64,000 bases of DNA from an uncultured Bryobacteraceae bacterium (GCA_938003835.1 CALKXJ010000023.1:1-64000); one strand, 5' to 3'; shown: positions 57,507 to 64,000, counted from the first letter of the stretch. The notes: generated by a model from the letters alone, not told the origin. Translations and numbers: made by a program.

Positions 57507-59156
57507 TCAGCCGAGGAAGCTCCAGCCGGTCAGCAGGCCGCCGGGCAGGTTTCGGGCGCGGTAGCCTTTAAGCAACAGGAAACGGGTGGCGAAGTAAGAG
57601 CGCTGGCCGATGGCGCAACTCACCCAGATCTCGCGGTCGCGCGCGAGCTCCGTGTAGCGCTCGCGCAACTGGCTGAGCGGGATGTTGACGGCCCCCTCCA
57701 GATGGTCGCGAGCGAACTCGAGCGGATCGCGGACGTCGAGCAGAATCGCCTCTGTGGTCGGAACCTGGCGCCAGTCGGCTAGCGGCAGATCGCCTGCGAG
57801 GACATTGGCGGCCACCATTCCGGCCAGATTCACCGGATCCTTGGCCGCGCCGAACTGCGGCGCATAGCAGAGCTCGGCCTCGGCCAGATCATACACGGTG
57901 GCGCCCATCTGGAGCGCCATCGAGATGACGTCGATCCGCTTGTCGGTGCCATCCTCGCCTACGGCCTGCGCGCCCAGGAGGCGGCCGTCCTGCGTGGAGA
58001 AGACGAGCTTCATGTGGATGCGGCGCGCGCCGGGATAGTAGCCGGCGTGGTGGCCGGGATGCAAATAGACGGCCTGAAAATTCTCGAACCCGGCCTGGCG
58101 GAGGCGCTTCTCGCTGGCGCCGGTCGTGGCGGCCACCAAACCCAAGCAGCCGCAGATCACCGTGCCCTGGACGCCGCGGAACTTCGCGGGGCGGCCGCAG
58201 ATCGAATCGGCGGCAATGCGGCCCTGGCGATTGGCCGGACCGGCCAGCGGCGCCAGGCACCACTCGCCGGTGACCACGTCGCGAACCTCCACCGCATCGC
58301 CTACGGCCCAGATCTGCGGATCGGAGGTCCGCATCGAATCATCCACGCGGATCCCACCCAGACTGCCGATCTCGAGCCCGGCAGCCTCGGCCAGGCCCAC
58401 CTCGGGCTTCACTCCCACGGCGAGGATCACCATTCCGGCCGGGAAAGAGCGCCCGGAGGCGGTCTTCACCTGTAAACCGCCTGGGGCCGGCTCGAAGCCG
58501 GTCACCTCGCAACCCAACTCGACGGCAACCCGGTTGGCCTCCAGGTGCCGGGCGACCGGTTCGGCCATCTCCGGATCGAGCGGCGGCAGAAGCTGATCCA
58601 GCCGCTCCAGCACCGTCACGCGCAGCCCGCGCAGCACGAGATTCTCGGCCATTTCCAGTCCGATGAAGCCGCCGCCGACGATCACCGCCTGCTGGGGCTT
58701 CTCCGCCTCGATCCATTCGCGGATCCGGCGGCTGTCAGGGATGGTGCGCAGCACGTGAATGCCGGGCAAATCAACCCCCGGCAGGCTCGGGCGCACGGGC
58801 CGCGCCCCCGGCGCCAGCACCAGGGCATCGTAGCTCTCCTCATAGGTGCGCCCGCTCCGAAGCTCCCGGACGCGGATCCGCCGCGCCAGACGATCGATGG
58901 CGACAACCTCACTCTCGGTCCGCACCTCGATGCGGAAATTGCGCTCGAAGAGTTCAGCCGAGGCGACCAGCAGGTGGGACTCGTCCTGGATTACGTTGCC
59001 GACATAGTAAGGCAAGCCGCAGTTGGCGAAGGAGACGTAAGGCCCGCGGTCGAATACGATGATCTCAGCGTCTTCATCCAAACGCCTGAGGCGGGCGGCA
59101 CAGGAGGCGCCTCCGGCCACTCCGCCGACGATGAGGACCCTTTTTGTAGCGACCAT
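57507..59156 (-). CDS. CoA-disulfide-reductase-like flavoprotein with C-terminal rhodanese domain
   Basis: The 549-residue protein is a pyridine nucleotide-disulfide oxidoreductase with FAD-binding VLIVGGVAGGASCAARLRR at the N-terminus and the single active-site Cys in SFANCGLPYYVG (C46). The NAD(P)-binding VIVGGGFIGLEMAENL and FAD-binding AVGDAVEVRD segments follow. Residues about 460-549 are a rhodanese domain with the loop Cys in VSCAIGQRSYF. This is the layout of CoADR-RHD enzymes that reduce CoA disulfides, persulfides or polysulfides with NAD(P)H. It suggests sulfane-sulfur or redox homeostasis. It is divergent from the cytochrome operon across 230 bases. Confidence 0.9.
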   Translation of the reverse strand: MVATKRVLIVGGVAGGASCAARLRRLDEDAEIIVFDRGPYVSFANCGLPYYVGNVIQDESHLLVASAELFERNFRIEVRTESEVVAIDRLARRIRVRELRSGRTYEESYDALVLAPGARPVRPSLPGVDLPGIHVLRTIPDSRRIREWIEAEKPQQAVIVGGGFIGLEMAENLVLRGLRVTVLERLDQLLPPLDPEMAEPVARHLEANRVAVELGCEVTGFEPAPGGLQVKTASGRSFPAGMVILAVGVKPEVGLAEAAGLEIGSLGGIRVDDSMRTSDPQIWAVGDAVEVRDVVTGEWCLAPLAGPANRQGRIAADSICGRPAKFRGVQGTVICGCLGLVAATTGASEKRLRQAGFENFQAVYLHPGHHAGYYPGARRIHMKLVFSTQDGRLLGAQAVGEDGTDKRIDVISMALQMGATVYDLAEAELCYAPQFGAAKDPVNLAGMVAANVLAGDLPLADWRQVPTTEAILLDVRDPLEFARDHLEGAVNIPLSQLRERYTELARDREIWVSCAIGQRSYFATRFLLLKGYRARNLPGGLLTGWSFLG

Positions 59157-59386: not shown

Positions 59387-61444
59387 ATGCGCGACGGATT
59401 GCATACCAAAACGATCTACAAACTCCTGTTCGTCTGCTGCCTGCTGGCCGGTTCCTTTGTGCTTGTCAGCGCCACCCGGCCGGTTTGGACGGCCGAGGAC
59501 AAGGCCTTCTACGCCGATCCCAACCTGCTGGCCTTCGTGCGGCCAGGTTTGGATATCAAGATCCTCTCGGCGGAGATTGCGGCCGACGGGACGATCCGTG
59601 CCCGGGTGAAGTTCACCGACCCGCGCGGTATGCCGCTCGACCGGGAAGGCATCCTGACGCCGGGCCCGATCAGCGCCGGCTTCGTCGCCGCCTACATCCC
59701 CCGTGGTCAGCGCCAATATGTCGCATATACCACCCGGGTGCAGCGGTCGCCGATCACCGGGCAGTCCGCCGTGCAGGCTTCGGCAGACACCGGCGGCCGC
59801 TGGGAGAAGGTCGGCGACGGCGAGTACGTCTACACCTTTGGGACCAGGGCCCCGAGCGATATCGACCGCTCAGCGACGCACACCATCGGCGTGTACGCCA
59901 ACCGCAACCTGACCGAGTTCGATCTGGGCATCAACCTCAAAGAGGTGACCTACAACTTCGTGCCCGACGGCTCGCCGGTGCGCGACGTGCGCGACGTGAT
60001 CCGCACTGCCACTTGTAACAAGTGCCACCACAGTCTCAGCGCCCACGGCACCACCGGCCGCACCACCATGGAGGGGTGCGTGCTCTGCCACCAGCCGCAG
60101 ACGATCGATCCAGACACCGGCAACACCGTGGACATGGCGGTGATGATCCACAAGATTCACCGCGGCCGTTATCTGCCCAGCGTGCAGGCCGGCGGCAAGT
60201 ATCAGATCGTCGGTTTCGCCCAGACGGTATTTGACTTCTCCAAGGTCGCTTTCTCGCCGGCGCCCTTCAACACCGACACCTCGAAGCAATGCGAGACTTG
60301 TCACGAATCGAACCGGGGCGCCGCTCAGGCCGACCACTGGCTGACCAAGCCCAACCGGGCCGCCTGCGGCTCCTGCCACGACAACGTGAATTTTGCCACC
60401 GGGGAGAACCATGCCGGACTGCCGCAAGTATCTGACAGGCAGTGCGCCTACTGCCACATCCCGGAGGGCGAGCTGGAGTTCGATCTGTCGATCAAGGGCG
60501 CGCACACGACGCCGGAATTCTCCAAGGAGCTGCCGGGCGTGGTCTTTGAAATTCTGGAGATCCGCGACGGCGTGGCCGGCAAGGCGCCGACCGTAACCTT
60601 TACATTAAAAGACAAGCAGGGCAACCCGCTGGCGCCTTCGAGCTTCAACTACTTGGCGCTGCTGATGGGCGGCCCGACCTCGGACTATTCGACATACATC
60701 GTCCAAAGCGCCCTGGCCGCAACCGGTTCAGGGGACCGCTGGAGCGTCACCTTCGCTCGGCCCATCCCGGCCGAGGCGAAGGGCACCTGGGCCATGGGGA
60801 TCGAGGGACGCCGCTTGATCACGCTGCTGCCCGGGACGCAGCGCGAACGCACGGTTTATGATGCCGGCAAGAACGTCGTCGTCTACTTCTCGGTGGACGG
60901 CTCGAAGGTGGAGCCGCGCCGGACGGTCGCCGAGCTGGCCGACTGCAACCAGTGCCACAACAGTCTGACGATTCACGGCTTGAACCGCAACCAGATCGAG
61001 CACTGCGTAATTTGCCACAACCCGGTGACCACAGACGCCGCGACCCGGCCAGCCGACAAGAAACCGGACGAGTCGCTGGACATGCGGGCGATGATCCACC
61101 GCATCCACGCCGGCGCACGTTTGAGCCGGGACTACACCATCTACGGGCGCACCAGGGCCTATAACTATAACGGAGTACGCTATCCGGGCTTCCTCGAGCG
61201 GTGCTCGGCCTGTCACGTCGCCGGCAGTTACCAGTTGCCGCTGCGGCAGGATCTGCTGAAGGTCGCCGACCCGCGCGGCTATTTGAATCCGGTGGGTCCG
61301 GAGACGATCGCCTGCATCAGTTGCCACGACAGCGTCCAGGCGGCCTCGCACGCACTGGCGAACACCTCGGCGCTCGGCGAAAGCTGCGCCTCCTGCCATG
61401 GACCGAACCGGCAATTCTCCGTCGACCGCTCGCACGCCCGGTGA
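59387..61444 (+). CDS. OmcA/MtrC-like decaheme c-type cytochrome
   Basis: The 685-residue exported protein (signal YKLLFVCCLLAGSFVLVSA) has exactly ten CxxCH heme-binding motifs in two blocks of five, at residues 210, 231, 302, 327, 353 and 520, 540, 606, 643, 667. Each block follows a beta-rich, heme-free stretch (about 45-205 and 365-510). This is the four-domain layout of Shewanella MtrC/OmcA outer-surface cytochromes, which pass electrons to metal oxides, flavins or electrodes. In Shewanella these are lipoproteins; here no canonical lipobox is seen. It is the first gene of a run with the MtrA-like and MtrB-like genes, 5 bases ahead of the next ATG. Confidence 0.88.
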   Translation: MRDGLHTKTIYKLLFVCCLLAGSFVLVSATRPVWTAEDKAFYADPNLLAFVRPGLDIKILSAEIAADGTIRARVKFTDPRGMPLDREGILTPGPISAGFVAAYIPRGQRQYVAYTTRVQRSPITGQSAVQASADTGGRWEKVGDGEYVYTFGTRAPSDIDRSATHTIGVYANRNLTEFDLGINLKEVTYNFVPDGSPVRDVRDVIRTATCNKCHHSLSAHGTTGRTTMEGCVLCHQPQTIDPDTGNTVDMAVMIHKIHRGRYLPSVQAGGKYQIVGFAQTVFDFSKVAFSPAPFNTDTSKQCETCHESNRGAAQADHWLTKPNRAACGSCHDNVNFATGENHAGLPQVSDRQCAYCHIPEGELEFDLSIKGAHTTPEFSKELPGVVFEILEIRDGVAGKAPTVTFTLKDKQGNPLAPSSFNYLALLMGGPTSDYSTYIVQSALAATGSGDRWSVTFARPIPAEAKGTWAMGIEGRRLITLLPGTQRERTVYDAGKNVVVYFSVDGSKVEPRRTVAELADCNQCHNSLTIHGLNRNQIEHCVICHNPVTTDAATRPADKKPDESLDMRAMIHRIHAGARLSRDYTIYGRTRAYNYNGVRYPGFLERCSACHVAGSYQLPLRQDLLKVADPRGYLNPVGPETIACISCHDSVQAASHALANTSALGESCASCHGPNRQFSVDRSHAR

Positions 61445-61449
61445 GTCCC

Positions 61450-62373
61450 ATGCTTGGCCGCTTCCTGCGGGGCGGGCTCCGGCGCCTGCCCCTACTTCTG
61501 GTTCTCGCAGCGTGGCAGCCGGGCGCGGCGGCGCAGGAAAGCTCGCCAGAGCCCTATGCCGGCTCGGAGTCCTGCCAGCCGTGCCACGAGGACATTTACA
61601 ACTCTTTCCAAAAGAACGCCCACGCGTTCCTGGACAAAGACAAGGGGCGCGGTTGGGCGGGTAAGGTCTGCGAATCCTGCCACGGGCCGGGGGCCAAACA
61701 TGCCGAGACGCTAGCGGCAGCCGACATCCGCAACCCGGCGAAGCTCGCGCCGCTCGAAGCGGACAAAAGTTGCCTGGAGTGCCACCGGCATCAGGCGACC
61801 CAGGTGGGGCGCGTCCGCGGCGGCCACGCGCGAAACCTGGTGGCGTGCGTTCAGTGCCACCCCATTCACGGCACAGAGAAGGTCACGCTGTCGCCTCATC
61901 CGGCGAGCCGGATCAACGCCCAGTGCGCCGGCTGCCACGCCGACGTCTGGACCTCGTTCCAGCGGCCTCACACTCACCGGCTGGCGCAGGGTGCGATGAG
62001 CTGCGTCGACTGCCACAATCCGCACGGGGGCGCCTTGATCCGGAACATGCGCGTTGCCCTGAGTAACGAGCCCGGCTGCCTGCGCTGCCACGGCGACAAG
62101 CGGGGGCCGTTCGCCTTCGAGCACGCGCCCGTGCGGCTCGAGGGCTGCCAGAGCTGTCACGAGCCGCACGGCTCGGCAAACCCGCGTATGCTCATCCGCC
62201 ATGAGGTCAGCCGCCTGTGCCTGGAGTGCCACGCCAACCTTCCGGGCGCCGCGGGCGCTCTGGGGGGCATACCGGCCGGTTTTCACGACCTCAGTAGCCC
62301 GCGCTTCCGCAACTGCACGGTCTGCCACGTCAAGATCCACGGCTCGCAGGTGAACAGGGACTTTCTGCGATGA
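61450..62373 (+). CDS. DmsE/MtrA-like periplasmic decaheme cytochrome
   Basis: The 307-residue exported protein (signal RLPLLLVLAAWQPGAAAQ) has ten CxxCH motifs at residues 42, 74, 108, 133, 159, 185, 210, 233, 257 and 289, at near-even spacing. The distal His-rich segments GPGAKHAETL, NPHGG and EPHGSANPRML are typical of the DmsE/MtrA family. MtrA (about 330 residues, ten hemes) sits inside the MtrB barrel and carries electrons across the outer membrane. ATG 61450 is preferred to a GTG three codons upstream. It overlaps the start of the barrel gene by 4 bases, as ATGA. Confidence 0.9.
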   Translation: MLGRFLRGGLRRLPLLLVLAAWQPGAAAQESSPEPYAGSESCQPCHEDIYNSFQKNAHAFLDKDKGRGWAGKVCESCHGPGAKHAETLAAADIRNPAKLAPLEADKSCLECHRHQATQVGRVRGGHARNLVACVQCHPIHGTEKVTLSPHPASRINAQCAGCHADVWTSFQRPHTHRLAQGAMSCVDCHNPHGGALIRNMRVALSNEPGCLRCHGDKRGPFAFEHAPVRLEGCQSCHEPHGSANPRMLIRHEVSRLCLECHANLPGAAGALGGIPAGFHDLSSPRFRNCTVCHVKIHGSQVNRDFLR

Positions 62374-64000
62374 AACACGGTGCTCTCCTTTTGCTTGCGG
62401 TCTTGCCGGTAGCCGGGCAACAGACTCCCACCGCCGTTCGCGAGAAGGCCACCTTCGGCACGCTCGATTTGGGCTACCGCTGGACGAGCACGGTGCCGGG
62501 CGACTTCGCCACCTACCGCAGCGTGGTGAACTTACAGGAAGGTTTCCGCGTGCGAGGCCTGGACTTCCACTCGAGCGACTCGTCGCGCCGCCTCTACGAC
62601 AGGCTGACCTTCTTCGCCGATAGTTGGGGCGACCCCTACAACACTGCTCGTCTGGACACCGAGCGCAGCGGCGCTTGGCGACTTAGGTTCGACTACCGCA
62701 ACATCGATTACTACAACTTCCTGCCCTCGTTCGCCAATCCGGGCCTGGAGCAGGGAAGCCTGGTAAATCAGCGCTCCTTCGACATCCGCCGTCGCTTCTT
62801 CGATGCCGAACTTCGCCTGCGACCCGGCAAGCGCGTGAGCCCGTATGTGGGCTTCAGCCGGGATTCCGGTTACGGGCGCGGCATCACGCCGTTTGTGACG
62901 AACGGCAACGAATACCCGGTCGGCACCACGCTCCGCGATCAGACGAACAATTACCGCGGCGGCGTGGACCTGGAGTTCCGCCGCTGGCACCTGACGCTCG
63001 AACAGGGCGGCACGCACTTCAAGGATGACCAGTTGGTCTTCACGGCCGATCGAAACCTGGGCAACCGCCGCCTGCCGCTGCTCGGGCAGAATCTGTTCCT
63101 TTCGCAGGCGACTCAGGCCTACGGGGCTCGGGGCGAGAGCGTCTACTCGCGCGGCATCTTCACCGCCGCCCCGATCGACGCCGTGAATCTCTACGCGCAA
63201 TTTCAGTTCAGCCAGCCGAAGACCGACATTCGCTACACGGAGGGCGGGCGCGGCCTGTTCTATCTCGGCGCGACGCGCTTCTTCAACGCGCTCGAAAGTC
63301 TGGCCTCGGGCGAGGCCAAGCAGCCGCACACCTCGGCGGCCTTTTCGGCCGAAGTCCGCCTGCATCCCCGGATCCGGATCTTCGAGTCAGTCTTTACCGA
63401 CCGGCTGCACAATGCCTCCTCGCTGCTGCTGGTGCAGCAACTCTTCTTCGCGGCGAGCCCCGCCGAGAGCGAGCGGATCTTCACGCCGGACCGGCTGGTG
63501 ATGAACTACAACCGCCAGCAGGCCGAGCTCTTCGTGGACGTAACCACGAAGATCACGCTGCGCGGCGGGCATCGCTACGAGTGGGGAGACGCGCAACTGC
63601 GCGCGCCGTCGCTCGCGCCCGTGCCGAACCCGCAGACCGGCGAACTCAAGCGCCATGTGGCCCTGGCGGGCGTCAATTTCCGGGCACTCAAGAAGCTCGT
63701 CTTCAACGTCGATTACGAAGGCGGCGACGCCGAGCGGTCCTACTTCCGCACCAGTTTGCACGACTACCATCAGCTTCGCGGCCGCGCCACCATCCAGGCG
63801 CTCACCTCGCTCCAGCTTCTGGCGAACTTCCTCCTGCTCGACAACGAGAACCCGACGCCGGGCGCGGGCTACGATCTCCGCAACCTGGCCGGAGGGCTCT
63901 CGCTCCGGTGGACGCCCGGAGGCGGCCGGCGCCTGAGTTTCCTGGGAGACTACACGCGCTCCCGGCTGCGCTCGGACATCTTCTTCCGCTCCCTGCCGTT
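62370..64000 (+). CDS. MtrB/PioB-like outer-membrane beta-barrel, 3' truncated by window end
   Basis: From ATG 62370 the frame stays open for 543 codons to the end of the window, so the gene continues. A signal peptide (KHGALLLLAVLPVAGQQ) is followed by amphipathic, aromatic-rich strands with short turns (RLRFDYRNIDYYNFLPSF, LFYLGATRFFNALESL, KLVFNVDYEGGDAERSYF). This is typical of the MtrB/PioB family of about 700 residues that encloses the MtrA-type decaheme. No cysteine occurs in the visible part, unlike Shewanella MtrB with its N-terminal CxxC. The start overlaps the MtrA-like stop, so the pair is co-translated. Family assignment rests on context plus barrel-like sequence. Confidence 0.8.
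   Translation, partial: MKHGALLLLAVLPVAGQQTPTAVREKATFGTLDLGYRWTSTVPGDFATYRSVVNLQEGFRVRGLDFHSSDSSRRLYDRLTFFADSWGDPYNTARLDTERSGAWRLRFDYRNIDYYNFLPSFANPGLEQGSLVNQRSFDIRRRFFDAELRLRPGKRVSPYVGFSRDSGYGRGITPFVTNGNEYPVGTTLRDQTNNYRGGVDLEFRRWHLTLEQGGTHFKDDQLVFTADRNLGNRRLPLLGQNLFLSQATQAYGARGESVYSRGIFTAAPIDAVNLYAQFQFSQPKTDIRYTEGGRGLFYLGATRFFNALESLASGEAKQPHTSAAFSAEVRLHPRIRIFESVFTDRLHNASSLLLVQQLFFAASPAESERIFTPDRLVMNYNRQQAELFVDVTTKITLRGGHRYEWGDAQLRAPSLAPVPNPQTGELKRHVALAGVNFRALKKLVFNVDYEGGDAERSYFRTSLHDYHQLRGRATIQALTSLQLLANFLLLDNENPTPGAGYDLRNLAGGLSLRWTPGGGRRLSFLGDYTRSRLRSDIFFRSLP

Follow-up and report, generated by a model that had tools for sequence, protein, structure and literature searches.

A complete mtrCAB operon in a Bryobacteraceae genome, with an ImcH-type cytochrome as the probable inner-membrane partner of the predicted conduit

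The genome of an uncultured Bryobacteraceae bacterium carries a complete mtrCAB operon, which very likely encodes a 20-heme conduit across the outer membrane, probably fed with electrons from quinol through an inner-membrane cytochrome of the ImcH type and delivering them to an acceptor outside the cell. Earlier work had found MtrCAB in this lineage, where it turns out to be common. Baker et al. 2022 described an MtrCAB group (Group 5) of Acidobacteriia only, Bryobacterales included (PMC8805035), which makes the suggestion of a sequence-only reading of this DNA, that a complete operon would add the lineage to those known for the trait, out of date. New here are the association with ImcH, the missing lipid anchor of MtrC and the presence of the operon in genomes of sulfate reducers.

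The window, i.e. the whole stretch of DNA analysed, is the first 64,000 nucleotides (1-64000) of contig C23, which measures 83,586 bases; the genome has 5.0 Mb and an estimated completeness of 100%. The three genes are as follows.

mtrC, 59387..61444, + strand: OmcA/MtrC-family decaheme cytochrome, 685 aa, 5+5 hemes, Sec-type signal sequence without lipobox
mtrA, 61450..62373, + strand: DmsE/MtrA-family periplasmic decaheme cytochrome, 307 aa
mtrB, 62370..64000 in the window and on to 64304 of C23 (L005:6370-8304), + strand: outer-membrane beta-barrel, 644 aa

The sequence-only reading had described two adjacent decaheme genes with ten CxxCH motifs each, and these were found in a 5+5 arrangement in the 685-aa protein and evenly spaced in the 307-aa protein. 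Also its 5-base gap and 4-base overlap agree with the gene ends: the stop of mtrC is at 61444 and the ATG of mtrA at 61450, and the end of mtrA at 62373 overlaps the start of mtrB at 62370 in an ATGA. The barrel gene is third in the operon as claimed, but its end is not at 64000, where the window edge cuts the gene; the contig holds 304 bases more, up to the true end at 64304. The lineage had been read as Acidobacteriota-like, and the named close relatives are indeed Bryobacteraceae/Solibacteraceae or other Acidobacteriota MAGs, apart from a few doubtfully labelled records.

The 3' neighbour of mtrB is a convergent uroporphyrinogen-III methyltransferase gene. In the stretch downstream of mtrB (C23:64299-76000; L005:8299-20000) the methyltransferase is fused to a further domain, and a PPDK-like gene, two TauE/SafE-like genes (recognised by eye), a CobB/DsrN-like gene and a sulfate adenylyltransferase gene are present. 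The divergent neighbour of mtrC (57507-59156) encodes a CoA-disulfide-reductase-like flavoprotein with a rhodanese domain, scoring 450 bits against a family cut-off of 579.

The CxxCH motifs of MtrC are at residues 210, 231, 302, 327 and 353 in the first group and 520, 540, 606, 643 and 667 in the second. Composition-matched shuffles (2000) contained on average 0.02 (MtrC) and 0.10 (MtrA) such motifs, with a maximum of two, and ten per cytochrome is far beyond chance. In the profile searches MtrC scored 497.8 bits against TIGR03507 (cut-off 209.3) and MtrA 235.3 bits against TIGR03508 (cut-off 192.2). The MtrC/MtrF domain II/IV model PF22113 gave two matches in MtrC, covering both heme domains (161.7 bits). 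Among PDB sequences MtrC matched MtrF (3pmq, E 5e-23) and also OmcA and MtrC, and for MtrA the top match (E 3e-35) was 6r2q_A, the A chain of the Mtr complex. A structure of MtrC predicted without an alignment had a pLDDT of 33.7 and was discarded. Cytochrome c assembly genes are present in the genome.

The full-length barrel narrowly passed the cut-off of PF11854 (MtrB_PioB), with 25.2 bits against 23. The 543 aa encoded in the window reached 12.2 bits with TIGR03509 (OMP_MtrB_PioB), the cut-off being 240, and the barrel appears to fall outside this subfamily. Of the profile matches foreseen for MtrC, MtrA and the barrel, those to TIGR03507, TIGR03508 and PF11854 were thus obtained and that to TIGR03509 was not. 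At an E-value of 0.001 PF11854 matched only 6 of the 20 members of the barrel family, and a profile of the family found no MtrB chain among the PDB sequences, so a fold comparison was needed. The protein modelled was a relative (L060) with 62% identity and 61 aligned sequences, standing in for the window's own protein. Its model (pLDDT 86.8) has about 26-28 strands, and the best solved match was the Shewanella MtrB, 6r2q_B (Foldseek E 5.5e-14). VIA aligned the two over 550 residues at 3.6 angstrom with a Z of 25.2, while the next matches, TonB-dependent receptors, had a Z of 17.7. With PF11854 passed and the relative's fold closest to 6r2q_B, the proposal that the third gene is of the MtrB/PioB type was borne out, and no other barrel class was seen. 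The assignment of the three genes to MtrCAB is supported by the profiles and, for the barrel, also by the predicted fold of this relative.

The locus shares with the Shewanella MtrCAB (6r2q) a decaheme MtrC, a decaheme MtrA resembling 6r2q_A and a large barrel, the model of which resembles 6r2q_B. It differs in the barrel sequence (12% identity in the structural alignment), in the lack of a lipobox in MtrC, in having no second mtrC above the family cut-off in the genome, and in the probable partner, which is of the ImcH type rather than CymA. The Shewanella MtrC is a lipoprotein. The lipobox [LVI][ASTVI][GAS]C was sought in the N-terminus of this MtrC and was absent, the signal sequence being Sec-like, and it was absent also from the MtrC of 56 of the 57 relatives, the remaining one having it.

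A match to this MtrB was found in 166 of the 200 genomes of the order. In 132 of the genomes the match was strong, i.e. with E below 1e-40, a division set in this analysis; the weak ones had about 27% identity among the matches listed and probably reflect mainly a second barrel type. Strong homologues were present in 130 of the 180 sampled genomes of the family, and MtrC-family genes in 46 of the 297 genomes sampled across the phylum. Among 80 named loci, mtrB is adjoined by MtrA in 72 of the 74 and by a decaheme MtrC in 54 of the 65 that had room for them; the three genes have thus stayed together.

An inner-membrane quinol dehydrogenase, with CymA/NapC as one of the types named, had been suggested as a further component to be sought downstream and elsewhere in the genome. 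A candidate is present, but it is of the ImcH type and lies unlinked on contig C8, and no NapC/NirT tetraheme (CymA-type) gene occurs in the mtr cluster. The model PF03264 (NapC/NirT) matched in the whole genome only NrfH on contig C7 and the protein on C8. In the latter, N-terminal hydrophobic segments, two of them strong and the expected third weak, precede a single CX3CH and five CX2CH motifs; most relatives have three such segments. ImcH homologues have been described as having three N-terminal helices, an atypical CX3CH and 5-9 CX2CH (PMC6295460). The C8 protein is assigned to the putative ImcH type from this published description of motifs. It has in common with the Geobacter ImcH the atypical CX3CH and the CX2CH motifs behind N-terminal hydrophobic segments, but the CX2CH motifs number five instead of six. 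NrfH was rejected as the quinol dehydrogenase of MtrCAB because it is paired with NrfA, which makes nitrite reduction its likelier role.

Both a strong mtrB and imcH were found in 126 genomes; 6 had only the mtrB, 11 only imcH and 57 neither gene. The proportions with imcH, 126/132 of the genomes with a strong mtrB and 11/68 of those without, give a Fisher p of 1e-31, which is not to be taken literally since the genomes are related. Within 4 kb of mtrB, imcH was found in 25 of the 57 scorable loci of named relatives, in at least four arrangements: directly behind mtrB (3 loci), about 1.1-1.2 kb behind it (8 loci, where the tetraheme gene fits in the gap), at a greater distance behind it (4), upstream with the same orientation (6) and on the opposite strand (4). 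The chance expectation, about 8 kb out of about 6 Mb, was estimated at roughly 0.1-0.2% per genome. Five of the linked relatives have the gene order imcH-mtrC-mtrA-mtrB. On the MtrB tree, constructed only of the relatives found here, nearly all Acidobacteriota, the linkage takes a minimum of 6 changes. Zhong and Shi 2018 reported no mtrAB adjacent to imcH (PMC6295460), whereas the genes are linked in many of the relatives here. The text of a 2026 karst MAG study presents six porin-cytochrome clusters with ImcH- or NapC/NirT-like genes, leaving their phyla and any mtrCAB identity unstated (PMC13264449), so the imcH link may be partly anticipated. Judged by gene content and linkage, the quinol dehydrogenase that works with MtrCAB is probably of the ImcH type and not CymA. 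The link offers a testable candidate for the inner-membrane step that had been missing for MtrCAB in acidobacteria.

An orthologue of the tetraheme cytochrome, with four mono-c domains and 65% identity to the protein of the closest relative, is encoded on contig C1. The gene is not directly downstream of mtrB here, the methyltransferase gene being in that place. A 4-heme ORF lies behind mtrB in 41 of 71 relatives, and the trait is therefore not universal in the lineage. The Group 5 loci of Baker et al. have the lineage, the three adjacent genes and the absence of a nearby cymA in common with this locus. In Group 5 a tetraheme cytochrome gene is directly behind mtrB and neither cymA nor any quinone oxidoreductase was reported nearby (PMC8805035), whereas the tetraheme gene is here on another contig and the relatives studied here include the 25 loci with a close imcH. 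Since neither imcH nor the tetraheme gene is linked to mtrCAB in this genome, the roles given to them here rest on the relatives. In three mtrCAB/mtrAB clusters the tetraheme gene and imcH are separated by a gene, roughly 570-600 codons long, for a 9-heme cytochrome, possibly another carrier of the chain.

9-heme cytochrome gene, L071:13288-15030
9-heme cytochrome gene, L077:13251-15068
9-heme cytochrome gene, L120:13647-15350

In the proposed path, electrons would most likely leave the quinol pool through the ImcH-type cytochrome and pass through carriers in the periplasm, the tetraheme mono-c cytochrome among them, to MtrA and on to MtrC. The MtrB barrel would sheathe the decaheme MtrA, and a surface-exposed MtrC would cap MtrA-MtrB on the outside, completing a path of 20 hemes across the outer membrane. 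From MtrC the electrons would presumably pass outwards to an extracellular acceptor, which may be e.g. Fe(III)/Mn(IV) oxides or humics. We infer that the organism is capable of extracellular electron transfer. If most Bryobacteraceae, which are common bacteria of soil and peat, have an MtrCAB that works, such transfer would be a standing option in soil and not a trait of few specialists.

The genome also has a sulfate-reduction locus on another contig.

Dissimilatory sulfate reduction locus, G000 C3:40001-58000 (L052): aprA, qmo-like, qmoC, dsrA, dsrB, dsrD-like, dsrL-like, dsrC, dsrM, dsrK, dsrJ, dsrO

The proteins encoded are AprA, a QmoA-like protein, QmoC, DsrAB, a DsrL-like protein, DsrC and DsrMKJO, together with a small protein that matched no model and that we take to be DsrD-like. 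A suspected stop inside dsrA was the normal stop codon. Sat and a CobB/DsrN-like protein are encoded on C23, some 9-12 kb behind mtrB. A specific association of dsr with mtrCAB was tested but not supported: a strong mtrB is present in 11 of the 12 genomes with dsrA, yet mtrB is so common that this is no clear excess (Fisher p 0.06).

The relatives include 'Ca. Sulfopaludibacter' MAGs. MAG CO124 (L107) has mtrC-mtrA-mtrB-tetraheme on one contig, JARLGM010000152.1, and the terms 'decaheme', 'multiheme' and 'extracellular electron' are absent from the main text of its paper (PMC10564751). The SbA3 MAG (L103:94-3122, OKRF01000351.1) has mtrB and the tetraheme cytochrome gene at a contig end; reading its mtrB match as a pseudogene was rejected, as the stop adjoins ambiguous bases and gives no evidence of one. 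According to Hausmann et al. 2018, known metal-reduction genes were lacking in the acidobacterial MAGs of their study (PMC6018796), to which SbA3 belongs, and the mtr genes of SbA3 and CO124 bear on the open question about peat sulfate reducers. A broader proposal, tentative and in our view possible rather than probable, is that ImcH and MtrCAB form in Bryobacteraceae one dedicated chain from quinol to the outside, a pairing unreported in published surveys, with a non-lipidated MtrC, and that the dsr-bearing members (this one and 'Ca. Sulfopaludibacter') would be able to alternate between reducing sulfate and using extracellular acceptors, or to oxidise sulfide with Fe(III).

The sequence does not reveal the direction of the conduit, and MtrAB homologues serve also Fe(II) oxidisers. 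A conduit running inwards, with Fe(II) or some other donor outside the cell being oxidised as in MtoAB/PioAB, or one running both ways, e.g. with sulfur oxidation through reversed Dsr/Apr/Sat, would be consistent with the DsrL-like and DsrC genes beside dsrAB, and sulfur oxidation was left possible for such acidobacteria by Hausmann et al. (PMC6018796). The presence of MtrC nevertheless argues against this direction, which we consider unlikely. PioAB and MtoAB systems are not known to include an MtrC. Also the homologues of ImcH come so far only from Fe(III) reducers (PMC6295460).

Comparably small is the probability that the operon is intact but its anchorless MtrC stays in the periplasm or is released, reacting with soluble or periplasmic partners and taking no part in contact-dependent mineral reduction. 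The general lack of a lipobox points that way, but the MtrAB complex itself could hold MtrC, and a GspD match above the cut-off in the genome argues for export. Less probable still is that MtrA and MtrB form a DmsEF-like outer-membrane module serving an extracellular terminal reductase and not minerals: the top score of MtrA is with the DmsE-named TIGR03508, yet this model applies to MtrA proteins in general, the flanks as inspected by eye showed no molybdopterin reductase gene, and a full MtrC is present.

Other multiheme genes were also observed. On contig C7, NrfH and an NrfA-like pentaheme protein (L053:8821-10686) suggest nitrite reduction to ammonia. Contig C8 (L058:4677-7538) encodes a 953-aa protein with ten CxxCH motifs followed by a region of repeats resembling a beta-propeller by eye. 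A second decaheme cytochrome of the DmsE family (261 bits with TIGR03508) is encoded on C7 (G000 C7:279789-282682; L054:7789-10682), in a cluster without mtrC and with a small 212-aa barrel upstream. Its gene overlaps by 4 bases that of a 669-aa barrel, which matched no Pfam or NCBIfam model and is 33% identical to MtrB over the first 220 residues; the pair looks like a two-gene conduit of the MtrAB type.
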